Below are positions 10,069-43,532 of a stretch of DNA of 64,000 bases, piece after piece. This stretch comes from Conchocele bisecta (Eukaryota > Mollusca > Bivalvia > Lucinida > Thyasiridae), in assembly GCA_029237695.1 (NCBI GenBank), contig CM055269.1:31654956-31718955 (forward strand), given 5' to 3'. Numbering within the stretch: the first letter of the stretch is position 1; each line of letters opens with the position of its first letter. The notes beneath the pieces are model-generated. The model saw only the letters and a program-made list of their open reading frames with translations. It had not been told where the DNA came from and made no database searches. The position numbers were made by a program, and so were the translations under genes.

Positions 10069-10185
10069 CTGAAACATGCTCTATCAACAATATGTGGTCT
10101 GTCGACACACAAATTCCCGCCGCACCCACAGGTGTGTAAAGCACGGAGCCCCGCAGGGGACGTAAAATACTTTTCTGTATTAATC

Positions 10186-15439: not shown

Positions 15440-15790
15440 ATATCCATCCTAGTAATTATGTAAATTCATATTTCATTATGTTCATTTTAATACAATATTC
15501 ATTGCGGTATTCGACATATATGTACATGCACATATTAGAATGTAAATTAATATTTCATTATAATCAATGTAATACGATATTCATTGCGGTATTCGGCATA
15601 CATGTATATGCACATATTAGAATGTAAAGTCATAGTTCATTATATACAGTGTAATACGATATTCATTGCGGTATTCGACATACATGTATATGCACATAAT
15701 TATTAGAATGTAAAATCATAGTTCATTATGTACAGTGTAATACAATATCCATTGCGGTATTCGACATACATATATATGCACATATTAGAG
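15440..15790 (+). repeat. About 82-bp tandem repeat, four units
   Basis: The phrase ATTCATTGCGGTATTCGACA recurs near 15,497, 15,580, 15,661 and 15,748 (spacing about 82, 82 and 86 bp). Each copy is followed by a TACATGTATATGCACATATT-type stretch. It lies directly downstream (minus strand) of exon 7 in the intron. Confidence 0.8.
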
Positions 15791-16810: not shown

Positions 16811-17199
16811 CTAAAATATATAAAGTATACACAGTAACTCCTACATGTTCCGCTTAAATATTCGATGGGTCTTTGTCAATTACGAGTCATGGTTTTGAAG
16901 AATGTACTTAAAGTTTGATAATCTTGCGATATCATATGTTACTGTTCTAAAATCGGTGGAGTTTACGTGGAACAGTCTGTAGTTACGTGTATGTCATACT
17001 GGCCATCGACAAAGTTAAATTAACGTGCATTCATTTAAATATGTAGAAGAATACAGCCAACAAGATGTATCTGAGAACAGAGTAGCTCGACTATTGACAG
17101 CCTCTTAATTATAAAATGGTTTAGCTACGACAGAACACGTTTCATGTAATACGTAGCACAAATAAAATCACGTGACACGTATATGATGAATGTACGCAC

Positions 17200-17370
17200 C
17201 CTGTGTTGTCCACCGCTGATGCACATATAATATGTTTTCCAAGGGCGTCGCTAGATGGTCGCCAAGTTACAAACACGAACTGTTCATTTGGATCTGTAGC
17301 GTGGTTCTGTACTGGTGATATATGTATAACCTCTTCCAGACGGCCGGTCACAGTGAATGCATCGATAGTC
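17200..17370 (-). CDS. Host gene exon 5: first copy of the beta-module exon
   Basis: Acceptor GATATACAG and donor ACAGG|GTGCGT bound 171 nt encoding TIDAFTVTGRLEEVIHISPV and then a tail ending ALGKHIICASAVDNTG. The entry base completes the Thr codon of exon 4. Exon 9 is its paralogous partner, with the same phases and nearly the same length. Confidence 0.87.
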
Positions 17371-19885: not shown

Positions 19886-20886
19886 GTTTCATTGGTCAAA
19901 TGACGTCACATGACGTTACCGACTTAAGTCAGTAAGCCTTGCCTGGTAAACTTCATATTAATAGACATTAGCCTGGTATTCTCTATAGTCATGCCCGTTC
20001 ATCAAGTAATGTATCATTTATATGACGGATGTCGTGACGCAAACAGAATGAGCAAACACTGTCAAAAAATTTATCACGTGTAGTTTTCGGAATGAGAATT
20101 GGTTTTAAATGTTCTAACAAGTATACAAACAGTAACTGTTGAATAAAAATAGACAATGCACATCCCAACTGTGACGTTAAGCTATAATGGTACTCAAGAT
20201 TGGTTAAGAAGTCGATGCCGGTTTGTCATAGATTACTATTATTGCTGTGGTAAGTTGTCAAATTATGAGTAGTTCCTACAAATAGTGTTTCTGTTAATAA
20301 GGGAAGAATCTTTACTTTAGTGAATTATGTCACAACGCAAATGAAAACGTTTAACAGGAACGTGCAGGAACCAATACTTTGAATATATGTTATGCTTAGT
20401 CTTTAGATGCACGCTTTTCTCCTTGGTATAAAGAAGTTAGATACTACATTTCGGTTCGAAATCGTAACACGTTGTCGCAAATAAAATGATGGCACGCTAC
20501 AATGTTGGTGCAATAAATAATAGTTGGTGCAATAAATAATAGACAGATATGACAACGACAAGCTATAAATATTATGCCAGCAAACTATACAACAGACGAG
20601 ATATCAGAGCATTTCTCCCATCAATCTCAAAATAAATGTTGATGTGTAAACTTTTAAATCTGATGCATAGCCTATGTTAGTGTACACGTTATCCATAGGT
20701 AAAGCCATATTTACTCGCATAGTAGGTGAGTAGACATCAGGGAAAATACACTCAGGCAACTGCTTACATGTCACTGGATTTGATAGCTGATAACAGAGTA
20801 CAGTAGTGCGTATATATGGTAGGTGTTGTGTGGTTTGCCAGGTAAAAGTGATACACTGTGCGATTTTCTGTGTATGAGGCTATATA
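19886..20886. other. Intronic stretch without recognised features
   Basis: AT-rich sequence between host exons 3 and 4. A short direct duplication TTGGTGCAATAAATAATAG lies near 20,505-20,540. No exon, RNA gene or transposon end is recognised. Confidence 0.45.
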
Positions 20887-21003
20887 TAATGGTGGTTCAT
20901 GTTGTTAAAATCACAGGCACAAACCTGTCCAGGAAACTTAATATATTGAACAGTTTGGTGTAACATAACTGATACGAGTCCGTTCTCCTGGCTTTTCTAC
21001 ATC
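20887..21003 (+). repeat. Dispersed repeat (second copy of 443-560)
   Basis: The segment starts TAATGGTGGTTCATG and contains CACAGGCACAAACCTGTCCA and GAGTCCGTTCTCCTGGC, as does 443-560. Two copies in the same orientation about 20 kb apart indicate an interspersed repeat. Confidence 0.65.
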
Positions 21004-21547
21004 CTTGACTGAGAACATTTGCATCGGCCATATACAATCATATTTATTATTAAATATCATCTATTATTAGTACACCCACGTGGTACTTTCTTTGCCTTTA
21101 CTGGTGCTAATGATACAGACAGCCATTGTGTTATACCTGGGACCCAAGAACACATGTATTCTTGGACCCAAGTTGTATACGTAATCGTATCATCGCACTA
21201 GCAAAACTAGTCAACGCATAACACGACGCGGAAGTTTTTACGTTACCAAACAAATCACCATCATCGTAAATGTACGCCAAGCCAAAGCTTCAAACCATGT
21301 GTGTATTTTCACTATTCTTAGCTTGGACGTCATTATAGCATTGAAATCCAAAATGGCCGCTGTCCGTCATTTTGGAAATAATGAAACACGCTATGTGCGT
21401 GTTCATGTGCGCGTGCGAGGTGGAGAGGTATAGGATAGGCGTAAATAAGCATGGTGGAGGATAGTGAAATGTCAATAAATATAATTTAAATACAACAATA
21501 ATCGATGTACACCAGTTCCTGCAGTTTGATTCAAACGAGTTTCACGG

Positions 21548-22315
21548 CACCAGGGGGCCGTTCATTAAACTTCGTAGGACTAAAATGTTCGTAAGTGAAA
21601 GTATAGGATCGTCGGGAAATTTCAATTGATGGAATGACATGTATTCAGCATATGCTGCATATGCAGCCTATGTTCAATAAATGTAAATCCAATAATCGTT
21701 TGCAAGAAAACATTGTTAATGTGAAATTTACAGACTATCATAATTGTGCACACTTACGAANNNNNNNNNNNNNNNNNNNNNNNNNNNNNNNNNNNNNNNN
21801 NNNNNNNNNNNNNNNNNNNNNNNNNNNNNNNNNNNNNNNNNNNNNNNNNNNNNNNNNNNNNNNNNNNNNNNNNNNNNNNNNNNNNNNNNNNNNNNNNNNN
21901 NNNNNNNNNNNNNNNNNNNNNNNNNNNNNNNNNNNNNNNNNNNNNNNNNNNNNNNNNNNNNNNNNNNNNNNNNNNNNNNNNNNNNNNNNNNNNNNNNNNN
22001 NNNNNNNNNNNNNNNNNNNNNNNNNNNNNNNNNNNNNNNNNNNNNNNNNNNNNNNNNNNNNNNNNNNNNNNNNNNNNNNNNNNNNNNNNNNNNNNNNNNN
22101 NNNNNNNNNNNNNNNNNNNNNNNNNNNNNNNNNNNNNNNNNNNNNNNNNNNNNNNNNNNNNNNNNNNNNNNNNNNNNNNNNNNNNNNNNNNNNNNNNNNN
22201 NNNNNNNNNNNNNNNNNNNNNNNNNNNNNNNNNNNNNNNNNNNNNNNNNNNNNNNNNNNNCACACTTACGAACATTTTAGTCATACGAAGTTTGCTGAAA
22301 CGGACCCCTGTACGG
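21548..22315. mobile_element. MITE-like element interrupted by an assembly gap
   Basis: The left end (CAGGGGGCCGTTCATTAAAC then TTCGTAGGACTAAAATGTTC) and the inverse of the right end (CAGGGGTCCGTTTCAGCAAA then the same word) are inverted copies bracketing a gap. The TIR sequence style is common in marine-invertebrate genomes. Most of the interior is unknown. Confidence 0.65.
21761..22260. other. Assembly gap (500 N)
   Basis: Exactly 500 undetermined bases. The round number suggests a placeholder, so true length is unknown. The gap falls inside an inverted-repeat element, a usual cause of scaffold joins. Open frames spanning it are meaningless. Confidence 0.98.
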
Positions 22316-22447
22316 TTGGAGGTGGTCAAAAGAACATGATGAATGATGAGATGGCATTAATTACACATTGAATACAGCACTATATTAAAATGGAAATCGC
22401 TTCATTGAAACAGAATCAACTGTTGTACACCTATTTTTAAGTTGTAC

Positions 22448-22612
22448 CTGTACGACGGTTGCACTCATGCCAAATACGCCCGGTACAATCTTCTCGGTGC
22501 CCCGATATATCAAGTGCTTGCTGAGGTCAAGGGCCGTGATGGCGATGGCTCCCCAGTAGTCATCCGTGAAGTTGTTTTGCCGGGTGGCCGTTATCGTCAC
22601 CGTACAAGCTTG
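22448..22612 (-). CDS. Host gene exon 3
   Basis: 165 nt (55 codons, phase 0-0) encode QACTVTITATRQNNFTDDYW, then AIAITALD, then a tail ending MSATVVQ. The donor is ACAG|GTACAA. The acceptor TCGGATAG is weak in pyrimidines. GC content is much higher than in the surroundings. The Cys-Thr-Val strand after exon 2 (ending ITVDE) and the VQ-FLVHV junction to exon 4 fit the order. Confidence 0.82.
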
Positions 22613-23239
22613 CTATCCGACATAGAATTATATAAACTGGTTTAATATGCAAAATGTGTTATACAGTGGAACCCCTCTAAATCGGACACTCGGGGAAACA
22701 TATATGTTTACTTTTGATGTGTTTCGCTGTTATGTATCTCTGATTACAATGACTTTTCAAGATTGCAAAATACTAGAATATGTCATGAGGTTCTCACTCG
22801 TATAAATTTAAGTTAAAAAGCACTAAATAGATTTACTATACAATTCAACTGAGTACCAGATATATACCTCATTCTCTGCTGCTTTCAATTTTATATGGCC
22901 GTTGCAGAACCTAGTTTTTTACATAAGCTGCAATATGTTTGCACAGGATCTGATAAAACAGGTGTCCGCTTTATCCACTGAAAAACACATCCAATCTCCC
23001 CTCTGAACACCCTAGGTTTATGAACGGTCTACCGGTGCCAACACTGTTTGCACCACGTGATCATCATGTTCGAGTATGTTTTACGTATCCTACACATCTG
23101 CATGACGAACATGTAGTTAGATATGCAGTAGTATATTTCACAAGCCGATATTTACAACAGTTGATCAGGTCCTGCATGCAAACTGTGTACATGGCATAAA
23201 ACCTTCGGTTTACCGAACTTTTTTCGACACTACATTTTT

Positions 23240-26200
23240 ACGTAACACCTACACCAGTACCTCCCAGTGTCACATACCTCATCAACAGTAATGCCTGCTA
23301 TTGGTGTAACACATACATCAATACTTCCCAATGTTACATACCTCATCAAAAGTAATGCCTGCTATTCGCGTAACACCGACATCCATAGTTCCCAATGTTA
23401 CATAACCCATCAACAGTAATGCCTACTATTGGTGTAACGCCTACATCAATAGTTATCAATGTTACATACCTGATCAACAGTAATGCATGTTATTGGGGTA
23501 ACACATACATCAATAGTTCCCAATGTTACAAACCTCATCAACGGTAACGCCTACTATTGGGGTAACATATACATAAATGGTTCCCAATAATTCCCAATGC
23601 TACACACCTCATCAACATTAATGACTGCTATTGCCTACATCAATAGTTCCCAATGTTACATACCTCATCAACAGTAATGCCTGCTATTGGTGTAGCACAT
23701 ACATCAACAGTTCCCAATAGTACATACCTCATCAACAGTAATGCCTACTATTGGTGTAACACATACATCAATATTTCCCAATGTTACATACCTCATCAAC
23801 AGTAATGCCTGCTATTGGTGTTACACCTACATTAATAGTTCCCAATTACATACCTCATCAACAGTAATACCTGCTATTGGTGTAACACCTACATTCATAG
23901 TTTCCAATATTACATACCTCATTAACAGTAATGCCTACAATTGGTGTAACACCTACATAAATAGTTCCCAATGTTACATACTCCATCAACAGTAATGCCT
24001 ATTAGTGGTGTAACACGTACATCAATATTTCCCAATGTTACATACCTCCTCAACAGTAATAACTACTATTGGCGTAACACCGACATCAATAGTTCCCAAT
24101 GTTACATACCTCATCAACAGTAATGCCTGCTATTGGTATAACACATACATCAGTAGTTCCCAATGTTACATACCTCATCAACAGTAACGGCTGTTATTGG
24201 TGTTACACATACATCAATAGTTGCCAATGTTATATACCTCATCAACAGTAATGCATGCTATTGGTGTAACACATACATCAGTAATTTCCAATGTTACATA
24301 CCTCATCAACAGTAATGCATGTTATTGGTGTTACACATACATCAATAGTTGCCAATGTTATATACCTCACCAACATTAAATATACCTGCTATTGGTATAA
24401 CACCTACATTAACAGTTCCCAATGTTACATACCTCATCAACAGTAACTAATGCCTACTATTGGTGTAACACCTACATTAATAGTTCCCAATGTTACATAC
24501 CTCATCATCAGTAATGCCTGCCATTGGTGTAAAACCTACATCAATAGTTTCCAATGTTACATACCTCATCAACAGTAATACATGCTATTGGTGTTACACA
24601 TACATCAATAGTTGCCAATGTTATATACCTCATCAACAGTAAATATACCTGCTATTGGTGTAACACATACATTAATAGTTTCCAATGTTACATACCTCAA
24701 CAACAGTAAAGTCTACTATTGGTGTAACACATACATTAATAGTTCCCAAAGTTACATACCTCATCAACAGTAATGCCTGCTATCGGTGCTACACATACAT
24801 CAATAGTTGCCAATGATATATACCTCATCAACAGTAAATATACCTGCTATTGGTGTAACACCTACATAAATTAGTTCCCAATGTTACATACCTCATCAAC
24901 AGTAATGTCTACTATTGGTGTAACACGTACATTAATAGTTCCCAATGTTACATACCTCATCAACAGTAATGTCTACTATTGGTGTAAGACCTAGATCATT
25001 AATTGTTCCCAATGTTACATACCTCATCAACAGTAATGCCTACTATTGGCGTAACACCAACATCAATAGTTGCCAATGGCACATACCTCATCAACAGTAA
25101 TGCATGCTTTTGGTGTAGCACATACATAGTTCCCAATGTTACATACTTAATCACCAGTAATGCCTTCTATTGGTGTAACACCTACATTAATAGTTCCCAA
25201 TGTTACATACCTCATCAACAGTAATGCCTGCTATTGGTGTAACATATACATCGATAATTCCCAATGCTACATACCTCACCAACAGTAATCACTGATATCG
25301 GTGTAACGCCTACATCGATAGTTCCCAATGTTACATACCTCATCAACAGTAATACCTGCTATTTGTGTAACACATACATCGATAGTTCCCAATGCTGCAT
25401 ACCTCATCAACAGTAATGATTGCTATCGGTGCAACGCCTACATCGACAGTTCCCAATTTTACATACCTCATCAACAGTAATGTCTGCTATTGGTGTAACA
25501 CATACATCAGTAGTTCCCAATGCTACATACCTCATCAACAGTAATGACTGCTATTGCTGTAGCGCCTACATCAATATTTCCCAATGCTACAGACCTCACC
25601 AACAGTAATAACTGCTATTGGTGTAACGCCTACATCAATAGTTCCCAATGTTACATATCTCATCAACAGTAATGCCTGCCATTGGCGTAACACCTACATC
25701 AATAGTTTCCAATGTTACATACCTCATTAACAGTAATGCCTGCTATTGGCGTTACACATACATCAATATTTGCCAATGTTATATACCACATCAACAATAA
25801 ATATACCCAATGTTACATACCTCATCAACAGTAATGCCTACTATTGGTATAATATCTACATTATTAGTTCCCAATATTACTTACATCATGAACAGTAATG
25901 CCTAATATTCGTGTAACACCTACATAAATAGTTCACAATCTTACATACCTCATCAACGATAATGTCTACTATTGGTGTAACACCTACATCAATAGTTCCC
26001 AATGTTACATACCTCATCAACAGTAATGCCTACTATTGGCGTAACACCGACATCAATAGTTCCCAATGTTACATACCTCATCAACAGTAATGTCTACTAT
26101 TGGCGTAACACCGACATCAATAGTTCCCAATGTTACATACCTCATCAACAGTAATGCCTACTATTGGCGTAACACCTACATCAATAGTTCCCAATGTTAC

Positions 26201-28345
26201 ATACCTCATCAACAGTAATGTCTACTATTGGTGTAACACCTACATCAATAGTTCCCAATGTTACATACCTCATCAACAGTAATGCCTACTATTGGCGTAA
26301 CACCGACATCAATAGTTCCCAATGTTATATACCTCATCAACAGTAATGCCTGCTATTGGTGTAACACATGCATCGATAGTTGCCAATGTTATATACCTCA
26401 TCAACAGTAAATATACCTGTTATTGGTGTGACACCTACATTAATAGTTCCCAATGGTACATACCTGATCAACAATAATGCATACTATTGGTGTAACACCT
26501 ACATCGATAGTTCCCAATATTACATACCTAATCAATAGTAATGCCTGCTATTCGTGTAACACCTACATCAATAGTTCCCAATGTTACATATCTCATCAAT
26601 AGTCATACATGTACCTACTATTGGTGTAATAGCTATATCAATAGTTCTCAATGTTACGTACCTCATCAACATTAATGCCTGCTATTTGTGTAACACATAC
26701 ATCAGTAATTCCCAATGCTACATACCTCATTAACAGTAATGAATGCTATTGGTGTAACGCCTACATCAATAGTTCCCAATGTTACATACGTCATCAACAG
26801 TAATGTCAGCTATTGGAGTAACACATACATCAATAGTTCCCAATGATACATACCTCATCTACAGTAATAACTGATATTGCTGTAACGCCTACATCAATAG
26901 TTCCCAATGCTACATACCTCATCAACTGTAATGACTGCTATCGGTGTAACGCCTACATCGATAGTCTCCAATGTTACATACCTCATCAACAGTAATGCCT
27001 GCTATTGGTGTAACACATACATCAGTAGTTCCCAATGCTACATACCTCATTAACAGTAATGAATGCTATTGGTGTAACGCCTACATCAATAGTTCCCAAT
27101 GTTACATACGTCATCAACAGTAATGTCAGCTATTGGAGTAACACATACATCAATAGTTCCCAATGATACATACCTCATCTACAGTAATAACTGATATTGC
27201 TGTAACGCCTACATCAATAGTTCCCAATGCTACATACCTCATCAACAGTAATGACTGCTATTGGTGTAACGCCTACATCAATAGTTCCCAATGTTACATC
27301 CTCATCGGCGTAACACCTACATCTATAGTTCCTAATCTAATGTTACCTACCGTATGTGCAGCAATGCCTGATATAGGCACCTACATCTATAGTTCCCAAT
27401 GATACATACCCCATCAACAGTAATGCCTGCTATTGGTGTAACACATACATCAATAGTTCCCAATGTTACATACCTCATCAACAGTAATGCCTGCTATTGG
27501 TGTTAGACATACATCAATAGTTATCAATCTTACATACCTCATCAACAGTAAATATACTGTACCTGCTATTAATGTAACACCTACATTAATAGTTCCCAAT
27601 GTTACATACCTCATCAACAGTAATGCATACTATTGGTGTAACACCTACAGTATTAGTTCCCAATATTACTTACCTCATCAACAGTAATGCCTACTATTGG
27701 AGTAACACATACAGCAATAGTTCCTAATGTTACTTACCGTATGAACAGCAATGTCTGATATTGGCACCTACATCAATATTTCCCAATGCTACATATCTCA
27801 TCAGCAGTAATGCTTACTAGTGGCGTAGCACCTACATCAATATTTCCCCATGTTACTTACCTGATCAACAGCAATGCATGCCTTTGGTGTAACACTAGCA
27901 TCAACAGTTAGCAATGTTACATATCTGATCAACGGGAATGACTGCTATTGGCATCTACATCAATAGTTCCCAATGTTACATACCTCATCAACAGTAGTGA
28001 CTGCTATTGGCGTAACAGCTACATCAATAGTTCCCAATGCTACATATCTGATCAACATCAATGCCTGCTTTTTGTGTAACACATACAGCAACAGTTACCA
28101 ATGTTACATACCTGAGCAACAGCAATGACTATTCTTGGCACCTACATCAATAGTTTCCAATATTACATACCGCATCAACAGTAATTCCTGGCGCAACACC
28201 TACATAAATAGTTACATACCTCATCAACAGAATCGCTTACTATTGGCTTAACAACTCTTCGATAGTTCCCAATGTTACATACCTCATCAACATTAATGCC
28301 TGCTATTGCCCAATGTTACATACCTCATCAACAGTAATGCCTGCT
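23240..28345 (-). repeat. 64-bp minisatellite built from the exon 2 end plus splice donor
   Basis: About 5.1 kb of tandem units of 64 bp (roughly 80 units by length). On the minus strand each unit reads GTGTTACACCAATAGCAGGC, ATTACTGTTGATGAG, then GTATGTAACATTGGGAACTA and TTGATGTA. The first about 36 bases match the last 36 bases of exon 2 (coding GVKPIAGITVDE; the units encode the same with Thr for Lys). The next bases are that exon's GTATGT donor and intron start. Units differ by point changes and some are truncated or lengthened. Because 64 is not a multiple of three, the array cannot be read as a repeat protein. It fills the intron between exons 2 and 3. Confidence 0.92.
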
Positions 28346-28462
28346 ATTGGCTTAACACCTATATGGCCAGCTTCCACAAACTGGGATTGTTCACACCTGA
28401 CGTTATCACCATCCTGGTCCGTTGCTGTAACTTGTATCGTAGTTTTTTCATTCAACTTTATT
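28324..28462 (-). CDS. Host gene exon 2
   Basis: Acceptor ACAATGCAG and donor GATGAG|GTATGT bound 139 nt. The first base completes an Arg codon from exon 1. The rest encodes IKLNEKTTIQVTATDQDGDN, then VRCEQSQFVEAGHIGVKPIA and GITVDE. The DxDGDxVRC motif is a calcium-loop-like turn plus a conserved Cys. The 3' end of this exon is the source of the minisatellite next to it, so the true donor competes with about 80 copies. Confidence 0.87.
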
Positions 28463-28790
28463 CTGCATTGTAAAACATAAAACCAATGAACAACGTATCA
28501 AAGAACCGTGTAAAATAAATCTGCGTTTTGAAGGAATATAATTACTATTACATTGTTGTATTCCGAGTTATATGGTTAAAACGCATTCCAATGGATATTA
28601 AAGGCATACATTTGAAAGGTTTAGTGGGAAAAGGGGGCTAAGTCACTTATGAACTTAGCCCTCCCCCGTACCTTCCATTCTAATTTTTTACCGCAACACC
28701 ATGTCAGCTGACTGTATAACGGTTCAAGTACCACAGCCGTGTATCATAACAAAGACTATGTGTTGGAAAATGTGTGCAATAACCATTTAC

Positions 28791-28934
28791 CTGTATAAGG
28801 GTCTGGCCATTATTTGGGGACTTTTGTTTGGCAGCATGGTGTCATTCCTGATTCTGTGATCTATCTTCACCTGCATGTGCCACTTTGGTTGCTGATCTTG
28901 AACTGTTAGGTTGTGCCATGATTGTCCTTCGAAC
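28791..28934 (-). CDS. Host gene exon 1 of those found (internal exon)
   Basis: Acceptor TATCCCTGTAG and donor TACAG|GTAAAT bound 144 nt encoding FEGQSWHNLTVQDQQPKWHM and continuing to NKSPQIMARPLY. It starts in phase 2, so at least one upstream coding exon must exist; I could not place it. Two N-glycosylation sequons (NLT, NKS) are present, in keeping with an extracellular product. Confidence 0.82.
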
Positions 28935-29029
28935 CTACAGGGATACATGTTTCAACATAATCACACTTATACCGTTTAATAGCATCAGTTCACGATAAAA
29001 CATAGGTGAATACGTTACATAACTTGGAA

Positions 29030-30207
29030 AAAATAGTAACAACTATTGGTGTAACACATACACTACAACTATTGGTGTAACATCTACTCGTGGTGTATCA
29101 CCCGCGCTAGAATTGGCGGAGATTGTTTCTTTTGGGCTGTCCTTTCAGATGGTACACCCTAAGATGGTATTCACAAAAACAGTTAGAGATACACCAATGA
29201 ATATTGCATGAACACAGTCGCAAATTTTTCCTGATCATAAACATGCGTTTGTCGGCTAATTATCTAATTTGCATTTCAGTGTCGTAAACATCCAGTTGAG
29301 GAAATTTCATTCTAAATTTAATTTGCCAATATTGCGCAGTCTGTCTGGAAACTTCACTAGAAGTAGGTGAAGTAATTCCTTTCACCGATTCAGCAATACC
29401 ACTGACTACCGTTTCACTGAATATACGATAAAACAACATGCCTGTTTGAAAGTATTTTCCAGAAGCTGTATTACAATATAGTTTCAGCATTGAACACTCC
29501 TTTATAATCCCCATAAACACTACAATACGTTAACATACGATGTACGTGCATGATAAGCAGACATAACCGAATTTAAAGGGTCTATCGGATGCAGTTGAGG
29601 TTCATGTGCACAGTATAGTCCTTTGAAATTTAACAATACTGGTGAAAACCGCATACAACTGCACTCACACTCTACTCACCGTACAAACTTCACAGCCTTT
29701 ATTGGTGTGCTTCTTTATATCATTACATATTATAATTCAGTGGTGAGCTCGGGCGCACTTACGGTTGACACCTTAAAATTCAAGATGGCGTCCAACATGG
29801 CGGTCACTTAACTGAGAAATGCAAGGGCGTCACAATAAATACACAAGCAGTCATGTGTTGTATGCACTGTGTTCAGAACATTTAATAATAATGGTAAAAT
29901 GCTTCACAAGGCCGCTTTATGCTACGCGTACATGAAAACTTACCATCCAGTGAATCTAGGTTGAACACATGATTGAAAGTGTGAAATTTATTTTACCGTA
30001 GACCGAGCTAGAAGTATTTTACTAATACGGCCGACGAAGAATTTGCTTCTAAAACCCAATGTGCTACTTTTATCTCAACGCTGACGAGTCCCTAAGGGCG
30101 ATAATACACGTACGCTGCTGAATAAACGGAAAAAGCTTCGGAATTATACGTAGTTACATAAACAGATATTAATAATAAGTTTCTATTATTAAAAATAGTA
30201 CATATTA
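29030..30207. other. Upstream intron or flank with stray minisatellite words
   Basis: AACTATTGGTGTAACACATAC and ACTATTGGTGTAACATCTAC at about 29,039-29,092 are two partial minisatellite units on the far side of exons 1 and 2. An 86-codon minus-strand open frame at 29,260-29,520 has plausible composition but no splice sites in phase with exon 1, so I do not call it. The last segment before 30,208 is plain AT-rich flank of the Polinton insertion. Confidence 0.5.
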
Positions 30208-30215
30208 ACTAGCCG

Positions 30216-30450
30216 AGTAGTAGTAAGGGAGTCAAAATGATACCACCTACCGTGATATCATGTATAACCCTCTATAATACCCCCACCACCCCCGAAAAAT
30301 CAAAAATTGGTTAACGAGGAAAATTGTCTCCCGACAGCAAATTTATAAATTTTTGGAGAAAATAATTTTGATAAGAGGGAGTCAAAATGATACCACCTCC
30401 AACCAAAAGTTGGTGGTGTTATTGTAGTCCCAATTATATTGGTAATTGAC
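30216..30450 (+). repeat. Left terminal inverted repeat of Polinton copy 1
   Basis: 235 bp matching the inverted right end. The repeated internal word GGGAGTCAAAATGATACCAC occurs twice, at the tip and about 150 bp in. A C-rich stretch ACCCCCACCACCCCCGAAAA lies between. The end is AG...CT, as in other Polintons. Confidence 0.92.
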
Positions 30451-30489
30451 TTTTGAAAAAATGGTTATAATAAAATATTATTAGAGAAA

Positions 30490-30843
30490 ATGGATAATAC
30501 AATACAATTGGAATTGAAAGTTTGTAATGCCTGTGTTGAAGAAGTTTACGAAGAATACGGGGGTTATAGTCCTATATATAAATTCTATAAAATGAGAACA
30601 CTAGGCGATATCGAATACATGAAATACCAGCGTAATTTATTACACTCCGATAAAAACGTTGCATTTACAATATTATACCGGCAATTATGTCAACTATACA
30701 AGAGGCAAATACAAACATTAAGACGGATAATGCGTATCGGATATGAAACTAAGGTGTATTATATAAAATTATTAAAACCCAACGATTCGTTTACGAATGT
30801 ACATTTCTACGATAAAGATATGTATATTATTGAACAGAACTAA
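30490..30843 (+). CDS. Conserved small protein of unknown function (Polinton left-end gene)
   Basis: A 117-residue intact frame starting MDNTIQLELKVCNACVEEVY, just inside the left repeat. I do not recognise the family. It is rich in Tyr, Lys and Arg, with a basic, mostly helical middle (YKRQIQTLRRIMRIGYETK) and no membrane segment. Copy 2 has a 115-residue homologue at 55,283-55,630 differing by scattered substitutions and a different last few residues. Both frames remain open although most larger genes are broken. The start is the first ATG after an AT-rich leader (TTATTAGAGAAA). The position next to the terminus and strong conservation suggest an early or terminal function, but that is inference. 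Confidence 0.7.
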   Translation: MDNTIQLELKVCNACVEEVYEEYGGYSPIYKFYKMRTLGDIEYMKYQRNLLHSDKNVAFTILYRQLCQLYKRQIQTLRRIMRIGYETKVYYIKLLKPNDSFTNVHFYDKDMYIIEQN

Positions 30844-31462
30844 TTAATTTATGTTGTAATCACAACACCAAGCAGACGACAATGTTCCAATTACACGCGT
30901 TATGAAAATGTAAATTAGGTGTCCCACCTTACACGTATATTAAGTGTCCATTTATAGAGAGGTTTACACGATTACGTCTTCCGGGATGGAAAATAAACAC
31001 ACTGTAATATACATTACACACACGGTTATTTATACCCTTATCAATGGTATGTAAACGGGCTATCGATTTACACAGGTGGTGTACACAGTTTATAAACACT
31101 TAGTGAGGGTTATATAGTTCACGAATTTCCGGGATGGTTCGTTATTTAATTTTGTAAAAAATATTTATAATTTAAAGCCGAACACCCCCTATTATATAGA
31201 AAACATATTAATTAATATAATAAAATAATTAATTATCAATAAATAACATTTTTTTTTATTTCACCAGCAAAGTTAAGTTTATATACGAGAAATAAACACA
31301 GTTCGGTGTCGGACGCCGGCATTAATATCTCAACAGCGAGATAAGTTTCGTCACATGTACTTCACTCTGGCCGCTCTGCACATTATAGCGGATGGAGGTA
31401 ACGAAGGGGAGAGGTCCGCGGTATCGGTCCAATGATGGGGTGTAGGAGATGTGAGTGCAACA

Positions 31463-31602: not shown

Positions 31603-31714
31603 AAATTGTTAATAATTTTCCTAAAATTAATTAATAAATTGTTTACTGCACCAATATAATTAATTTTATAATTAATTTAAAGAAAATTATAAAATTAATT
31701 ATTTAATAAAAATA
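31603..31714. other. AT-only spacer
   Basis: AT-rich spacer built from words such as TTAATAATTTTC and AATTAATTAATAAATTG and the phrase GTTTACTGCACCAATATAAT. The same words recur as gene separators elsewhere in both Polintons. In copy 2 this spacer is expanded by about 340 bp that include a second tRNA-like unit. Confidence 0.6.
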
Positions 31715-32350
31715 TTAATTTCCTCCGACTTTATCTCCAAGTTTTACCCTAAATTTATCCCAATCAGTTCTCTCAATCTTGGGCATGGTGGCGCGCGCTT
31801 TGATTCTAATATCATTTTTTAATTTTTCATATCTCCCCATTTCTTCCACCACGGATTCAAACTCTAAATTTGATATTTTCTTATCGGCCAACGCTTTGGA
31901 CACCATAACGTCGATGGTATTTTTCTTCGACCTGGCGAGAACAGATATTCTATCATGTTTTCTACATTTTTTCTCGAGTTTTCCACCCGACGCCCTAATT
32001 ACCATACACAACAACCCAGAAACGGCCGACACCGCACATAAAATCCCCGCTCCAGTAACCGTTATAATGGTGGATATAGTTGCAGCTGTCCCCGTCCCAC
32101 ACAACACAGAAACACTCGCCAGAGCCGTGCTAGATGCTTCAGCCATGTTCACCGCGCGTCTATATTTTTTAGCGTTTCTTTTTCTATTTTAGTATATTCT
32201 AACTAAAATATCCTGCATAGCGACGATATTATTCAACCTAAAATCTGAACTTCTTTCGTTAATTGTACACAGTGTTGATGGAGTGGTATTGACAATTGGA
32301 TACCGTGTTGATGGAGTGATATTGACAATTGGAAGCCGTGATTCGTTCAT
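31715..32350 (-). pseudogene. Polinton membrane-helix protein, frameshifted
   Basis: The C-terminal 145 codons are open at 31,715-32,152. The upstream part, starting MNES at 32,350, is in another frame because of a small indel near 32,190 (compare 57,160-57,190 in copy 2). The protein has two hydrophobic, Gly/Ala-rich helices (LASVSVLCGTGTAATISTII and AGILCAVSAVSGLLCMVI). A charged helical tail follows with KKCRKHDRISVLARSKKNTI and ALADKKISNLEFE. I recall similar proteins from invertebrate Polinton-like loci, always uncharacterised. A short tandem duplication (GTTGATGGAGTGGTATTGAC type, near 32,272-32,330) lengthens the N-terminal region relative to copy 2. Confidence 0.7.
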
Positions 32351-32370
32351 GATTTTCAATATATTAGTAT

Positions 32371-34363
32371 TTACAAAATAAGTTCAATTAACAATGAGAC
32401 AATAATGGAAGAACACTCTGGGTCACCGATTTTCGTAACAAAGTTAATAACACTACCTTGGGAAAGTTTAATTCGATCATAACCGGAGAACGAAACCACC
32501 GTCGAACTATCTCCAGCGATTTTAGTGACTCCAACCCCACGTTCTTCCCAATCTACTACAAGATTTATCGCGACCGCGCCCACAGGTTTACCACTAGCAT
32601 TAACCGAGCAGACCGCCATTCGGATAACTTCACCTGCAGCTGTCATAGCGTATCCCCCACATTTATTACTCGCTTTGGCACCGAACGAATATTCATAGTG
32701 CCCCTCAACCAATGGGCCCCGCTTCTCAGCCCAAACTGTTATGGCACGTTTTAGCGTTTTCATTGTTCGCACTATTCCGGCAAGCGCACTGTTTGAGGTA
32801 TATGCCTCAGTACGAATCTTATAAGAGGCCTCCTCAAGAGCTTTGGTCGCGGCTATACGATCATGTTTCAGTTTATCGGAAACTTCGGTTATCTTTCCGT
32901 CTAGTTCGGTAAGTGCCGCTTCTCTGCTGAGAGAGTCCTCTAAGCGCAACGCATCATAAGCCTCCGTAATGGTTGCCTGGTGGCCTTCTAGGGCTTTCTC
33001 AACACCCGACCGGGCCTCTTTTTGAAATTCGGTTATTTTCCCGTCTAGTTCAGCAACCGCGCTTCTCTGATGAGAGAGTCCTCTGAGCGCAACACCTTAT
33101 AAGCCTTCGCATGGGCTGCCTGGTGGTCTTCTCGGGCTTTCTCAATACCAGTTCGGACCCCCTCAACACCCGACCGGGCCTCTTTTTGAAATTCGGTTAT
33201 TTTCCCGTCTAGTTCAGCAACCGCCGCTTCTCTGATGAGAGAGTCCTCTGAGCGCAACACCCTATAAGCCTCCGTAAGGTCCGCCTGGTGGTCTTCTCGG
33301 GTTTTCTCAATACCCGTTCGGACCCCCTCAACCCCCAACCGGGCCTCCTTTCGAAATTCGGTTATTTTTTCGTCTAGTTCAGTAAGTGCCGCTTCTCTGT
33401 TGAGAGAGTCTTCTGAGCGCAACGCCCAATAAGCCTCCGCAATGGCCTCCTTGTGGTCTTCTCGGACCCCCTCAACCCCCGACCTGGTCTCTTTAAGAAA
33501 TTCAGCTATTTTCCCGTCTAGTTCATTAAGTGTCGCTTCTTTGCTGAGAGAGTCCTCTAAGTGTAACGCATCATAAGCCTCCGCAATGGCCTCCGCAAAG
33601 TTCACCTGGTGGTCTTCTCGGACTTTATCAATACCCGACCGGGTCTCTTTTCGAAATTTGGTTATTTTCCCGTCTAGTTCGGCAACCGCCGCTTCTCTGA
33701 TGAGAGAGTCCTCTGAGCGCAACACATCATAAGCCTCCGTAAGGTCCGCCTGGTGGTCTTCTCGGGCTTTCTCAATACCCGACTTGGCCTCTTTTCGAAA
33801 TTTGGTTATTTTTTTGTCTAGTTCGGTAAGTGCCGCATCTCTGATGAGAGAGTCCTCTAAGCGCAACGTATCATAACCCTCCGTTAGGGCCGCCTGGTGG
33901 TCTTCTCGGACTTTATCAATATCCGACCTGCTCTCTTTTTGAAATTTGGTTATTTTCCCGTCTAGTTCGGTAAGTGTCGCTTCACCGATGAGAGAGTCCT
34001 CTAAGCGCAACGCATCATAAGCCTCCGTAAGATCCGCCTGGTGGTCTTCTCGGACTTTATCAATCCCCAACCGGGCCTCTTTTCGAAATTTGGTTATTTT
34101 TTCACCTAGTTCGTTTAGTTCCGTATGCGTTTCTTCACGACTTTGTGTATTCACAGCCAGGGCATATTCTCTAAGTTGTGATAGTAGACTCTTGTGAATC
34201 TCGTCCGTGGCCACCGATATAGTTCTATTGATCAAGGCCTTTGTTTTTTGGGTAGTTAAAAAGTCGCCCTCTGTCGGGATGAATCCCCCTTCTCTCGGTT
34301 CCAAATTCTTTCTTTGAATTTGTCACCCAATCGGAAGAACTACCTCCGGTCGTATATACTCAT
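32371..34363 (-). pseudogene. Trimeric fibre-like protein with eight coiled-coil repeats, broken
   Basis: The reading order is a short N-terminal tail (with GGFIPTEGDFLTTQK), then eight repeats of roughly 45-60 residues built on LRLEDSLIREAALTELDGK, ITKFRKEARSGIDKVREDHQ and ADLTEAYDA. A C-terminal domain follows that begins ITVWAEKRGPLVEG and ends IIVSLLIELIL. That domain pattern (WAEK...G.Y..SFG...GGY, ending in a VSLL strand) is the kind of small beta-sandwich head I know from phage and viral fibres. The heptad-like charged repeats would form a long trimeric stalk. The role would be receptor binding at the vertex, next to penton. The frame is broken near the N-terminus (about 34,300-34,355) and near 33,050, so no full-length product is expected. 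Copy 2 has the same eight repeats with different breaks. Confidence 0.78.
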
Positions 34364-34471
34364 TTCAATAATGTTGATAATATATATATATAAATTACGA
34401 ACATGCGTTTAATTCTAAATAATTTTCTTAAAATTAATTAATTTGAAATTTCGAGAACGACCGAAATCGGG

Positions 34472-35111
34472 TTAATCGTTCTTCAACTCTCGCCCTTTAT
34501 CATCAAGAACAGAAATCTTCAACTCGTGGATGTGTCCCAATTCCAAAACTTTCATCTCGGGGTGTGTGAAGTCTAAGGTCACAGTCTCGCCATAGAAACA
34601 GTCGCTGGCGGGCACGGTTTTCAGTAATGTGGTGGGAGTGCCGTCTACCGTGTTGTACGATGTGTTCACCCAGATCCAGGTGCACCCCGAGAGTTTTCGT
34701 GAAGGCGAAGTTTACTGGGGTCGTGCCGACGTGCTCGCCCGGATCAAACATCCCATCATTGTTGGCAGGTAGTGTTATTTTAAATCCTAACAGTGAGCCC
34801 AACCCAGGTGAGACCCTTAACATTTTATCAACGGTCAATGTCGCAAGCCCCGTGGCTTTCGAGACTGAGAGAGTGACTACACCAGGAATCTTCGAAGCGA
34901 CAAAGGCTTGAAGATCTCCGAAACTCCAAAGGCCATGAGGTACTATAGCATGCTCGTCAACATCTGCTAAAAACTCGAGCGTTTCAATGTTTTTCCACCC
35001 GACCGTGAACGTGATTGATCTGAGGCCTACCCGGCGTTTTCCGCAGCAGTTATCGATTGACTTTTGAAGTTCACAACTCCCTTTTTGAACATTAGTGATA
35101 GTAGCAAACAT
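34472..35111 (-). pseudogene. Penton (minor capsid) protein, one frameshift
   Basis: It starts MFATITNVQKGSCELQKSID and ends in GRELKND, about 210 residues. The C-terminal signature NTSYNTVDGTPTTLLKTVPA, then FYGETVTLDF and HELKISVLDDKG, matches the conserved C-terminus of Polinton/adintovirus minor capsid (single-jelly-roll penton) proteins as I know them. One extra base near 34,669, within the codons before that signature, splits the gene into two frames. Only 14 bases separate its start codon from that of the divergent gene at 35,126. Penton would sit at the capsid five-fold vertices and carry the fibre encoded next to it. Confidence 0.82.
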
Positions 35112-35125
35112 AATAACATCTTTCA

Positions 35126-36574
35126 ATGGATACCAAAGCATTTAGCTTTAATTCTAATGCAAAGTACGCGGTCGGAGGTAAATGCACCCAAAAAGACGTT
35201 GTTAACCACCTTGTGCACCCAACCGTAACGGTTAGACCGGACAGTGGCTTTGCCACCAATTTCCCTAACACGTTTGAGAAATATAGGCTGCCCAAGATTA
35301 CTACGATGGAGGCGGTAAACAGGTGGAAAGCCACACCGATGCAGTTTTGGCAGAACCAGCTAAATTTCGCTGTATGGTGCGCAACAGCCGGATGTGGAGT
35401 TTCACATAAAGACCATCTGACATCCAAGAATGTCATGCTCCGAAGTGTCTACAACTTTCACGCGTATTATACTATTAGGAGGATTCTCAAAGAACTAGGT
35501 ATTTCACTACCTCAAGACGACGCCTGGGATCCCATTTCCAACGCATACGACCGTATGGCGGTTTGAAAGACTGTGTAACGAATTTAACGTTTCAAAAGAC
35601 GCGGACTGGAGACAGAAAGCATTTCCTACCAGCACCGGCCTCAGGGACGTTCTCATTCGGGGCCAGTCCGGGAATTGGACGCAGACTGATTTTAGACACG
35701 ATCACTTCGGTGACCACATCGTCAGTCTGAACGAGGGAAAAATTTTGACCACGCGACTATGACTTTCGGGCCGGAAGTGTCTGGAGGTCGGCACTGCGGC
35801 GTGTTTTCTTGTAAAATGTTACCTGCGAAACGGGCTCACGTCGATTACATACAGCAGGCTGCTGAGGTTCAGAACGCGTGGGGTACATTTATGTTAGATA
35901 AGGGTCTAGGGTTCACGCAGGCCGGGGTTACTCGCGTCAACGACTCCATTCGCACGTACGTCTGGGCCATCCTCGGCGCACAGAAGCAAACTCGCAGTTC
36001 TATACTGGGCACGGGAACGGCGTTTGATGCACAAAAACAATTTTTAGCACTTGTAGAGGACGCCATCTCAGCTAGGGTGGACCTGGAGAAGGCGATCCAG
36101 AATCATCAAGACGTTTTGCAGAATGCCAGCACTCCAGTAGACTATGTATTTGGAATAGGTCTTTATATGGCGCCGAGCAATATGATACTACGAGACGACC
36201 CGGTTGACGGTTACAATAATCAGATCGTAATCGCCACCGCCAATCAGAAAATCGACCACAACGGTAACGTGAACACGGATATCATCAAGCGCACCCCCAA
36301 CATGATCGGGTTCAACAGTGTTGAGGTTGTAAGTGGAACCGATTTCATAAAACGCCAAAAACACAAAATGGATACACCTCCCTCAACACAATCGAACCCA
36401 GTACCCCCAATTCGTAAATTGGATGCACCATCGAGTTCCCCAAATCCAATCATCAACAATGTTGGAACAGGAGCGGAAACACCAATCGAGATTGGAAGCA
36501 CAACACACGAGGAGGAGAAATTAGGGCTCGTCGTCGCCCTCGTGGCGATCGGATTATTTACGCTTTGGTTTTAG
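35126..36574 (+). pseudogene. Conserved Polinton protein of unknown function (large plus-strand gene left of capsid)
   Basis: A protein of about 480 residues, starting MDTKAFSFNSNAKYAVGGK. It contains KATPMQFWQNQLNFAVWCAT, SIRTYVWAILGAQKQTRS and GTGTAFDAQKQFLALVEDAI, and ends in a Pro/Ser-rich linker and a membrane helix (LGLVVALVAIGLFTLWF). I recall this family as common in cnidarian and mollusc Polintons; the role is unknown, with virion association plausible from the tail anchor. Two indels, near 35,563 and near 35,745, shift and then restore the frame, so the same frame is open on both sides. The linker contains palindromes of the CCAATTCG/CCAATCGAGATTGG type. Its stop codon overlaps that of the convergent gene on the minus strand. 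Confidence 0.75.
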
Positions 36575-37864
36575 GAACTCTCTGGCGAAGAATAGTAGGA
36601 GACCGGCGATTGCCACGATTAAAGCCCAGGTATTTTTTGCTAGTCATCCGGCCGTTTTTGATAACATAGATAGCAAGTAAGAAACGATACTTCCGATCAG
36701 TCCATGTAGTGCGGCAGCCGCCTTTTCGGATAATTTAGCCAGGAGACTGGCGAGGGCTTTTAGTTGTTTTTTTACCTACTCCTTGGCTCCGCCGGATGGC
36801 GCGGGTGGTGGTGTGGGTGCTAACGCGAGTGGTGGCGCCGCACCACCAGTGAAAGCTAGAACTATGGTCGATATAGTCATGCTGATAGCAACGAGGATGC
36901 TTGCTATCGTGACACCCTGCTCTCTGAACAGAGTGCGAAGACGCTCACCGAGTGTCGTCTCCTCGTGCAGGACCCTCGAGATTGTTTCGCGGATCCGACT
37001 TATTTGGGTGCGGAGAGCCTCACGGTTAGTCGATGCAGCCTGCAAGCGAGCTTCTCTTTCGTCCCGCAACGACCAAAGGCGTTCGGTGATCCGCTCGGTA
37101 GATTCTATATCGCCACCCGCTTCATCCAGTTTTCTTTCTTCTAGCGCGATATGTTCATCCAGCGACGAGAGTTTGGCGAGGTTAAGGACCAGTTCGCCCC
37201 GGACCGTTTGCATAACCTTATCGAGGCCCCGGAGTTCGCAAAGAGGTAACGGTGGGTCATCGTTGAGTATTTCGTTTTCGCTGAACGTGGTCTCCATCGT
37301 GTTAATAGCGTCGGTGGCTACTCGAGGGACCTCGCTGAGCTCGACCGTTTCTATTGTGGAGGCCGTTTTCGCCATCGTTTCGTCGGTAGACTGTAGGGCC
37401 TCTACAGCGCGGGGCGGCATAATTGTTTTACCCCTCTTCCAATCTGGGAATCCGAGTTCGTTCCTTATGAGTTGGCCACCGCCCGGGTTTCCTGCAATGG
37501 TGCTCAGTGCTAGGGGTTTACCGGTCATCGTGTTGACGATCGGGAGATTTGATGCTGCTTTTAGTCGCAATCTACCGTTCAGATCAAATTTGAACTTGGA
37601 GTAGTCGCGACCGACAGATGGGACCAGACCTTTTTCTGCCAAACTGTTGTAGTAGTCGTTTACAGCTCCCTCGAGTAATTCCCGACTTTGACTAGTAGTA
37701 GCGCCACCTAATTCCCCCGATTGCGATTGGATTGGAACTGGAGGCTCTATGAAGGTCGTTTCGTTAAAGTTATCGATGTCACCATCTATGTCATAATCAT
37801 CCTCATCCTCATCGACGTAATCGTCTCTGCCGATTTTATTCGTGTCAATATCGTAATCAGCCAT
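36554..37864 (-). pseudogene. Conserved Polinton protein with acidic N-terminus, coiled coil and membrane tail
   Basis: It starts MADYDIDTNKIGRDDYVDED; the first about 360 codons are open to a TAG at 36,776. Order: an acidic Asp-rich N-terminus, a middle region (NDYYNSLAEKGLVPSVGRDY), a coiled coil (about residues 215-310), a hydrophobic segment ISMTISTIVLAFTGG, a Pro/Ala-rich linker and GGAKE. Beyond the TAG, homologous sequence continues to a natural stop at 36,554-36,556. That tail would encode amphipathic helices and a second membrane segment. It contains a further in-frame stop at a Trp codon near 36,645. Copy 2 keeps Trp at both sites. I recall the family from other invertebrate Polintons; its role is unknown and a membrane-active minor virion protein is one guess. 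The last 21 bases overlap the convergent gene. Confidence 0.72.
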
Positions 37865-37939
37865 TATTTATATTTTTTCTTAAAATTAATTATGTATTAA
37901 AGACAAAACCATACGGGTTTAATATAGATTCACTAAATT

Positions 37940-39240
37940 ATGTCTTCGAGTCAATACGGTCGCAAACTCAATCCATACCGCAGACTGCGTGAGCCCCTCG
38001 GGGCAAAACGGCGTGAGACAGAGTGTCGTTATTACGAACAACCCATCGACGATCGACCAGAACCAGCAGCTCTTGGTCCGCTTCCCCAACCTCGGAGCTA
38101 ACGACGTCATTGTGCCGGGGACTGTTCGCCTCGCTTTCACTATTTCGCTGACGTCGACGGACGAGGACCGAACCGTCGTTCAGAACCTGGGTCGCGCCAT
38201 AGTCAAGAAGACCATGATAAAGATTTCTGGTAATGAGGTGATGTCGATTTATGACAGCGACGTCGACCATTGTTATCAGGACCTATGGAAGACGGCACAA
38301 GAGCGCGAAAACGCTGTCTATCAGGGTATTGACACCAGCAAAAATAAGAACGTAACCAAACTTAGAATCGGGGCTGCTAACAAGGCAGATAACAACGCGA
38401 GTGACAACGCGGTCGCGGGCGCTTACGGCAACCGCTTCTACATCCCGCTCGACTTTGAGTTGCTGGAGAGCCACATGCCCTACTATCAGAGTGCTTTGGC
38501 TGACCGCCTCGAATACGAACTAACGTTCAACGACTACTGGCCGAGTTCTCATAGCCACCGACGTGTTATCGACGTAAACGATCGACAATGTTTCGCTGGA
38601 GTACGACATGGTCACGATTCCCGAACTCGCGCGATTGATCAGAACCCAGTACACCGGGCGCGTTGCCATACTTTACGACCGAGTTCTTCGCCATCGCAAG
38701 ATGACGAAAGACAAAGGCGACACATTGTGGAATATTAACGTCAACGTACCCGCCCGCTCGATGAAAGGTATGCTGATGCTGTTCGAGGAGGCTCGGTTAG
38801 CGCTCGGTGCTAGAAAATCCGACAGATTCTATAACCCCAAAATCACGAAGGTAGAGGTGACGATCGAGGGAGTCCCCAATCAACTCTACAGCGCGGGTCT
38901 TCGCGCGCACCAGCAGTGGGACGAAGTAAGAAAGCAGTTTGCTGCCGGGTCTAATAAGCGCTCTCCGGAGGTTGCAGCGGTTGCCAAAGACCTGCATCTC
39001 TCGGCCGTCTCCCTCGCGGAGTTCCTGAATACCAAATACGCGTTATGGTTAGACATGCGAGCCAGCGACGACGACCAAATACACGGCAGCGGACGCCAAG
39101 TTGAGAACGCTAGTGAGGGTGTGACGATCCAGATAACCAAAGAGGCAGATGGAAATGGGCCATTGAACGTGTACTTATATATAATTACAGACGCACAACT
39201 CAACATCGAAGATGGTCGATACGTCTCAGCACTCTACTGA
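37940..39240 (+). pseudogene. Major capsid protein (double jelly roll), frameshifted
   Basis: About 430 residues, starting MSSSQYGRKLNPYRRLREPL and ending in NIEDGRYVSALY. Conserved blocks are NPSTIDQNQQLLVRFPNLG, GRAIVKKTMIKISGNEV, FYIPLDFELLESHMPYYQSA, VPARSMKGMLMLFEEA and GSGRQVENASEGVTIQI. These are typical of the Polinton double-jelly-roll hexon, which forms the icosahedral shell. Single-base insertions near 38,010 (run of A then CGG) and at about 38,541 break the frame twice. In copy 2 the gene is open as far as the window shows. The ATG follows the leader TAGATTCACTAAATT and is the first start in the conserved frame. The packaging ATPase follows directly on the same strand. Confidence 0.9.
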
Positions 39241-39245
39241 TTTAA

Positions 39246-39917
39246 TAAAAAAAATCTACTAACGATTTATTAATTAATAAATTTGAAAAAATTAAGAAAA
39301 TTAGCAATCAATACCAATTCACGATTGGAGATGCCCACTCTGCCATAATATGTGGGCAGACAGGATGTGGAAAAACGGTTTTTATCCTAGACTTGCTCGA
39401 GGGCTCCTACCGCGATGCCTTTCGTCACATTGTGATCCTGTGTCTCACTGTGCGGCACAACGATACTTATCAGCGGCGCCCGTGGATATGGACCGACCCT
39501 GAGGTATACGATATTGACCCCGGTAATAGGCTTCACGATTGGCTGCGTGGTTTATACCAAAGATTCCAGGGTGAGCCCACCCTATACGTGATTGACGATT
39601 GCTCGGCCAAGGCGGCGATGACCAAAAAGAAGGACATGCTCTCCGAGCTCGCATTTTCTGGCCGCCATGCTAGGCAAAGCGTATGGATCTCCACTCAAAA
39701 GTACAACGCCGTCCTCAAGGATCTGCGCGAGCAAACGAAATGGGTCGCCCTCTTTCACTGCAAGGACCGAGACTCATTCGATGACTGTCTTCGAGAGAAT
39801 GACGTTATCCCAACGCGCGAGGAGCGCCTGGAGGTTCGACAGATGCTTTCGGAAACTAAACACGCCAAGCTTCTGCTAAAGACTGATCAACCAACTGCTT
39901 ACGAAGTTATCAATTAA
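39246..39917 (+). CDS. Genome-packaging ATPase (FtsK-HerA/A32 type)
   Basis: The Walker A motif is GQTGCGKT (39,354-39,377) and the Walker B is TLYVIDDCSA. A later ISTQKYNAVLKDLREQ block is typical of Polinton and nucleocytoplasmic-virus packaging ATPases. The product would pump DNA into preformed capsids. The frame is open from a TAA at about 39,246 to the stop at 39,917. No in-frame ATG occurs before the Walker A motif, and a TTG after it (39,393) is unlikely to be the real start. Either the N-terminus is lost, a non-ATG start is used, or an upstream indel removed the start. The C-terminal portion (RQMLSETKHAKLLLKTDQPT) is complete. Confidence 0.85.
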
Positions 39918-40214
39918 TTTTATAATTAATTAGCAATTACTTAACGCTCGTTAGTAATTGCCGAGTAAATGCTTAACAATTAATTTTAAGAAAATTAGCA
40001 ATTGCTGAACAATACTGAACAATGCTGAACAAATGCTTAACAAATGTTGAACAAATGCTGAACAATGGTTAACAATGTTAACAATTTGGTGCTCCGCTGC
40101 GAGCTTTGTTGCGAGCATAATGGTGATCATAAGTATCGGGTGGTGCACTTGGCAATATGTTAAAGTGATGAGACTTGTTAGAATAGTTAAATTAATTTTA
40201 AGAAAATTAGCAAT

Positions 40215-40914
40215 AATGAACTGCGACGAACTTCTCGATCAGCTAATAGAAGAAACCTCAACTCCGACTGCCAACATCCTGAAAGATAATGAAACATCAA
40301 CTCCGACAGAGCAATCGGGATCAACTCCAAATCCAACGGCGGTTGGTATTGGGTTGAGTGCAACGACTCCGAATGAAAATGAAAATGCGGCGCGACGAGA
40401 GCGGCTAGCTGCGCTGGTTGCTGTGGGACAATCGGAGCATTATCTCGGTAGGCGTCTCTCAGTTTTTCAGGTGGATAAGATGTCAGATGCGGAGATCGAT
40501 AAAATGTATGCGCGATACGAATCTAGGTTAGGTGCGGAGATGACAAAAACTCTCGGATCGGCGGCTATTCATTTGTACGCATCCGCCGTTAGTATACTTC
40601 TCCCTATACCAAACACCGCGGGATTGATTGACGATCTAGAGACTGACCCTTTTATAGGTCACACTCTTAGAACAACCTGCTGCTCAATTTATCACAAGTT
40701 TGGAATGTACTTAGCTCCGCTGACAACCGCGTTGACCACGGGTAAACACTGTCAATTTGGATATATATGCCCACGAACTATAAGCCCTAATATTAATATC
40801 ATAAATGATGACACAAGACACACCCGCGAGAGTGACGGAACAGCAATCTCCAACAGCGTTGGGGATTGCTCCAACCCAATCGAACCCGATTGCAGCACTT
40901 CCAACTCCGATTGA
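40215..40914 (+). CDS. Conserved Polinton protein of unknown function
   Basis: I take the ATG of MNCDELLDQLIEETSTPTAN as the start: an AT-rich spacer precedes it, and the longer upstream frame (from 40,075) reads AT-rich low-complexity sequence and a fortuitous hydrophobic segment. The conserved core is HYLGRRLSVFQVDKMSDAEI, YARYESRLGAEMTKTLGSAA and HTLRTTCCSIYHKFGMYLAP, ending LTTGKHCQFG. I recall this core in coral and mollusc Polintons, without known function. The N-terminal Ser/Thr/Pro-rich linker and the last about 40 residues are built over clusters of CCAATC-type palindromes. It overlaps the next gene by about 110 bases in another frame. Confidence 0.68.
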
Positions 40915-41405: not shown

Positions 41406-41410
41406 TTATA

Positions 41411-42078: not shown

Positions 42079-42130
42079 ATTAATTATTTTAAATAAAAAA
42101 AATTATAAATATATATATATATATGGAACG

Positions 42131-43485: not shown

Positions 43486-43532
43486 ATTGCTAATTTTCTT
43501 AATTTTTTCAAAATTATTAATTAAATAAATCA

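Follow-up and report, generated by a model that had tools for sequence, protein, structure and literature searches.

An Intronic Minisatellite in a Predicted Gene of the Bivalve Conchocele bisecta Whose Units Carry an Exon End and Its Splice Donor

The Locus and Its Predicted Host Gene

This work concerns a minisatellite in the genome of the bivalve Conchocele bisecta, situated in a stretch of 64,000 nucleotides (nt) of contig CM055269.1 (assembly GCA_029237695.1, positions 31,654,956 to 31,718,955), which we call the window and whose own numbering is used throughout; the analysis of the locus refers to one haplotype. The element lies on the minus strand at 23242–28308, inside an intron of a predicted gene, and each of its units of 64 base pairs (bp) consists of the final 36 nt of the coding exon that precedes the intron, here called exon B, followed by 28 intronic nt that open with the splice donor GTATGT. 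In other words, the end of an exon has been amplified together with its donor inside the following intron, as the original prediction for this DNA had proposed. The interval given in that prediction, 23240–28462, does cover the array, and can now be resolved into the array proper plus the whole of exon B.

The host gene is predicted to have four exons, all on the minus strand. Exon A (28791–28934, 144 nt) is followed by exon B (28324–28462, 139 nt), which ends in phase 0 at the true donor GTATGT (28318–28323), placed by the gene model and by donor scoring. Exon C (22431–22612, 182 nt) provides the acceptor that closes the array-bearing intron, and exon D (17143–17370), defined by an open frame and an acceptor, has an uncertain end around 17143. 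Joined in phases 2, 0, and 2, the predicted exons give 230 open codons, with GT-AG borders on the three introns. Of the 5,711 nt that make up the intron between exons B and C (28323 to 22613), 5,067 nt (89%) belong to the array. An assembly gap of 500 N (21761–22260) falls inside the intron between exons C and D. Further along the same strand, an open reading frame (ORF) at 9830–10385 resembles exon D by eye (..KLCLVAVDSNG..) and bears a 21-bp tandem array on its upstream side (10182–10385); it had no match in Pfam and may be either a paralogue or an additional exon. Beyond exon D there is also an 82-bp unit present in four copies (15458–15789).

What kind of protein would this gene encode? 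Neither the predicted protein nor the ORF of exon B returned a match when used as a query, and the family was reached only through a bait modeled on invertebrate proteins with a VRCRWA...ECGGVC...YAVA domain. The bait retrieved 33 proteins (P0001–P0033) at E values up to 1, among 36 candidates, and a Pfam scan of three members of the family gave no match. With a profile of the N part of these proteins, the exon B ORF ranks first of 2,012 window ORFs (E 1.2e-4), the best of 2,166 ORFs in the reversed window having an E value of 1.4, while exon A ranks fourth at E 5.3. With the profile of the C part, exon C is not among the best 12 matches, which are headed by other ORFs at E 0.056 and worse.

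The spliced prediction, compared with a combined profile of 27 sequences from which it had itself been left out, scores 43.8 bits (E 9.3e-13 for 1,001 sequences), and the best of 1,000 shuffles reaches 6.9. The alignment spans residues 11–120 and crosses the A|B joint as well as the B|C joint, so that it includes exons A and B and the first part of exon C, with exon D lying outside; at the B|C joint, the predicted ITVDE|QACTV pairs with vlde|eqCkl of the family. Because the joined peptide aligns across both joints with a score so far above that of the shuffles, the boundary of exon B looks ancestral: judging from these alignments, the position of the B/C intron looks old, and the end of exon B does not look like an invention of the array. 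In 14 relatives trimmed where homology ends, the next residue is valine in 11 (exceptions P0012, P0003, and P0004), as read-through into a GTN donor would give, a count that is neither blind nor independent since the trimming was done by eye, knowing the donor read-through. In six of nine C parts (P0003, P0004, P0011, P0017, P0023, and P0024), Q and then C appear after residues unlike the family. The prediction is without the tryptophan of CRWA and the cysteines of ECxxxC, reading CEQS and EAGHIG, the Pfam matches of its A+B peptide, DUF2490 (E 0.0025) and PapD_N (E 0.015), all fall short of the curated cut-offs, and the PDB gave one match for this peptide (E 0.19). On the basis of its residues, the host gene is a divergent relative of the family, not a typical member, and could also be decaying.

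Structure of the Array

Wrap-around alignment divides the 5,067 bp delimited by Tandem Repeats Finder (TRF) into 81 intronic units, counting a partial first unit (28308–28256) and a partial last unit of 8 nt, which agrees with the approximately 80 copies and 5.1 kb of intron expected at the outset. The units are arranged head to tail and their length falls in the range of about 10–100 bp that characterizes minisatellites; 57 of them are exactly 64 bp long, and their mean identity to the consensus is 0.915. On the minus strand the unit reads GGTGTTACACCAATAGCAGGCATTACTGTTGATGAG and then GTATGTAACATTGGGAACTATTGATGTA. A piece of 46 nt from the consensus has 33 matches in the window at up to three mismatches, all on the minus strand, and none in 100 shuffles.

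Variants common to at least five units account for 254 of the 431 substitutions, a pattern consistent with exchange between units. In addition, four units (27018–27273) recur as a block five units further on (26698–26953) with no more than two differences per unit. A regular higher-order organization can be rejected, a few such repeated blocks excepted, for the mean difference between units stays flat with distance (0.1375–0.1494 at lags 1–30). Wear is greatest in the 17 units next to the exon (0.838 versus 0.910 for the next 63, with gaps counted as differences). A structured RNA was considered and rejected as well (z = -0.81 for a four-unit stretch), and a search of Rfam over 20000–31000 produced one sub-threshold match, SNORD45 (E 0.56), located outside the array on the other strand.

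Relationship of Exon B to the Array

The exon itself is the outermost unit, as had been anticipated. Its end and the beginning of its intron match the array consensus over 28309–28364, a segment that contains the donor (28323), and around the donor the two are identical at 42 of 42 nt (28350–28309). This alignment had been set beforehand as the test of the idea, and the match does not end short of the donor, running 15 nt past it. We also considered whether the first part of exon B might represent an older unit, a possibility that we rejected when 171 of 500 shuffles scored as high; because exon B upstream of the array edge is not similar to the unit above the level of shuffles, only the end of the exon has been amplified.

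Closest to the exon, TRF and consensus alignment detect a 41-bp tandem pair (28268–28349), made up of the true boundary and the intronic copy next to it, which are 97% alike; consequently, the true exon is still followed by no more than 15 of the unit's 28 intronic nt. The unit at 28255, which is the nearest to keep those columns, is the sole unit that has the exon's A at column 7. An exact-match search places the 9-mer TAGGTGTTA first within exon B near the edge of the array (28353–28361) and last at its far edge (23243–23251), with no copy in the window beyond the array edges. The presence of this 9-mer at both edges fits an array that arose through slippage, or through unequal exchange, across the boundary. 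Upstream of exon A, at 29043–29087 on the same strand, there are two partial unit copies in tandem that carry the hybrid joint of exon and intron; they score 32.2 and 30.2 bits, and the highest score among 20 shuffles is 30.2. Besides these fragments, no unit copy above shuffle level occurs elsewhere in the window, and a 26-nt unit pattern had no exact matches in viral contigs.

Decoy Donors and Their Strength

The copies of the donor inside the array, which we call decoys, are well preserved: GT is retained at 73 of the 79 alignable sites, with GTATGT at 56 and GTAAGT at four, and 46 sites read exactly GAGGTATGT. In that the repeat overlaps the predicted exon–intron border and its units carry a donor, it matches a boundary minisatellite with multiple donors of the IFI6 type. 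Dozens of decoys beside the true donor had been predicted, and 52 of the 79 score no lower than the donor of exon B on a vertebrate matrix. Pairing with the 5' end of U1 is at least as good as that of the true donor in 51 of the 73 decoys bearing GT. Sites whose score equals or exceeds that of the true donor reach 10.3 per kb in the array; outside the array, their density is 0.24 per kb for its own strand and 0.36 per kb for the opposite one.

Are these donors maintained by selection? The donor hexamer is the fifth most conserved of 64 rotations of the unit, but its substitution rate does not differ significantly from that of base-matched columns (0.048 vs. 0.078, P = 0.14), and the earlier suggestions of a sink for U1 or of altered splice choice accordingly find no support here. 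Substitution rates at codon positions 1, 2, and 3 are 0.107, 0.113, and 0.084 in the copies, indicating no coding constraint. That the array might encode protein repeats was rejected: the unit is 64 bp long, the frame of exon B, when continued through the B/C intron, runs into 155 stops, the longest open run over this intron in the three frames is 59 codons, and the substitutions show no codon-position bias.

Reading through the true donor leads to a stop at 28305, six codons past exon B (VCNIGQ), and this stop precedes the first decoy (28282). Hence splicing from a decoy to exon C would introduce this early stop whichever decoy was chosen. Such splicing should thus be costly, a situation compatible with decoys that are seldom used as well as with decoys that regulate. 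The borders between units also contain AG|GT, in 63 of 80 units, with GAG|GT in 58 of the 63 and CAG or TAG in five; GAG is a poor form of acceptor, and the pyrimidine content before these AGs is 0.52. It had been supposed that acceptors are absent from the array, but this is too strong, for under a loose rule acceptor-like AGs occur at 7.1 per kb, similarly to the same strand on either side (6.6 and 7.4).

Neighboring Elements

The regions 31700–48000 and 50000–64000 hold what we take to be two copies of Polinton/Maverick-like elements. An ORF for an A32-like packaging ATPase (39249–39914; PF04665, E 8.8e-10) is found in the former, and paired repeat-bearing ORF regions with tandem units of 144–165 bp are present in these elements at about 33.0–34.3 and 57.6–59.4 kb.

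Comparison with Known Systems

The closest precedent for the array is the minisatellite of human IFI6 (6-16, G1P3; Turri et al., 1995, NAR 23:1854). Its unit is reportedly of about 12 bp, located at the border of exon 2, with the frame kept. Both minisatellites lie at an exon–intron border, that of a predicted exon in the present case, and carry multiple donors; unlike that of IFI6, the unit described here has a length of 64 bp, which is not divisible by 3, and is present in approximately 80 copies over 5 kb, in a gene family of invertebrate type.

According to PMC4526556, the IFI6 minisatellite provides multiple splice donors, and downstream units are used as donors. Dual-specific AG|GT sites are described in tandem repeats of human UBC and VCX3A (PMC10809524), and the present unit similarly carries AG|GT, which makes introns of whole unit multiples possible; yet the UBC units encode ubiquitin monomers, whereas ours are intronic and have mostly GAG. 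A tandem duplication spanning a splice boundary, as in our case, is also reported for potato RdRp (PMC4974935), where a single duplication across an intron–exon boundary, on the acceptor side, made a new intron; here about 80 donor-side copies sit in an existing one. The U1 site in intron 11 of PAH (PMC5933811) and decoy exons (PMC8706089) resemble the array in being intronic donor-like sites, able there to influence real splicing, but they were tested in minigenes and are not minisatellites. The DDX3Y minisatellite (PMC3039753) concerns a start site and not donors inside the repeat. Among the matches listed in our literature search, which did not cover most subscription journals, there was no case of this size built from the donor side of an exon.

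Origin and Consequences of the Array

These observations raise a question: How could so many strong donors accumulate next to a coding exon and be tolerated there? Our preferred explanation, to which we give a probability of about 0.6, is that of a minisatellite born from the boundary itself and tolerated because the first, true donor wins. For its birth and for the outcome of splicing we infer the following sequence of events. A 64-bp stretch over the boundary of exon B, with 36 exonic and 28 intronic nt, would have been duplicated in tandem, probably via slippage or unequal exchange between 9-bp direct repeats of TAGGTGTTA, one in exon B and the other intronic. Later unequal exchange would then have expanded the array to about 80 copies, until it filled most of the intron. 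The coding function of exon B would have preserved it as the outermost copy, with the units of the array as non-coding passengers. The true donor, which is transcribed first and lies nearest to the acceptor of exon B, would normally be used, and hence the array could be tolerated.

Several points weigh against this explanation. According to work cited in PMC5933811, if U1 binds both members of a pair of donors separated by more than 40 nt, the choice falls preferentially on the downstream site, and in IFI6 downstream units act as donors (PMC4526556). The identity of 42 of 42 nt with the exon edge is shared by five of 75 comparable units, so gene conversion of this edge by the array is possible. 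That the array ends in phase with its start can come about by chance, and the two unit fragments upstream of exon A are left unexplained by a local birth. Finally, the predicted protein is without most motif cysteines of its family, and in view of this, constraint on exon B may have been lost.

Could the array have come first? A dispersed 64-bp satellite would in that case have landed in the intron and overwritten the exon edge by gene conversion, and the fragments upstream of exon A, as well as the five units identical to the exon segment, are points in its favor. We regard this as very improbable, for the end of exon B sits at a joint of the family alignment and the window contains no other unit copy above shuffle level. 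The gene might instead be dead or dying, the array being then without any consequence. The motif residues missing from the prediction point in this direction, but 230 codons remain open over four exons with GT-AG borders; decay of the gene, which would be compatible with a tolerated boundary-born array, appears doubtful.

Other alternatives assign a function to the decoys. Some transcripts might use one of them, encounter the early stop, and be truncated or degraded, such that the length of the array tunes the output of the gene. The 52 decoys scoring no less than the true donor would serve this purpose, as would the stop at 28305 that all of them share when joined to exon C, and the IFI6 units used as donors (PMC4526556) provide a parallel; a hexamer that is not significantly conserved (P = 0.14) speaks against it, and we consider such tuning unlikely, if conceivable. 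The decoys might also bind U1 without being spliced, the bound U1 then aiding the upstream donor or shielding the long intron from premature cleavage. Most decoys bearing GT (51 of 73) could pair with U1 as well as the true donor does, and U1 bound downstream of the donor enhances PAH exon 11 (PMC5933811). Against this role stand again the donor columns, which are not significantly conserved, and the finding that AATAAA or ATTAAA is never present in the 5,067 nt of the array sense strand, with 104 occurrences in 58,781 nt outside, so that there is no such signal for U1 to guard against; it therefore seems a doubtful proposition.

The most intricate alternative is that the approximately 60 AG|GT sites function as both acceptor and donor in steps of 64 nt, each hop from the true donor restoring exon B with a fresh donor. 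Were this true, the array would erase its own decoys, the 5.7-kb intron would be removable piecewise, and the whole ladder would have been born from a single exon edge. The occurrence of AG|GT in 63 of 80 units lends itself to such a scheme, and human tandem repeats show an enrichment of introns that span multiples of the repeat unit and have dual sites of this kind (PMC10809524); but 58 of the 63 sites have GAG, with CAG or TAG in five, and the preceding pyrimidine content of only 0.52 is a further point against it. This makes recursive splicing along the array highly unlikely.

Whatever the origin of the array, some 50 donors whose scores match that of the true one are lined up next to it, at intervals that are mostly of 64 nt. 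Donor choice is usually studied with few competing sites in designed minigenes; counts of junctions across this array would reveal how position alone decides which donor is chosen. The locus also suggests a route by which a minisatellite may originate from a splice boundary, with the coding exon being retained.

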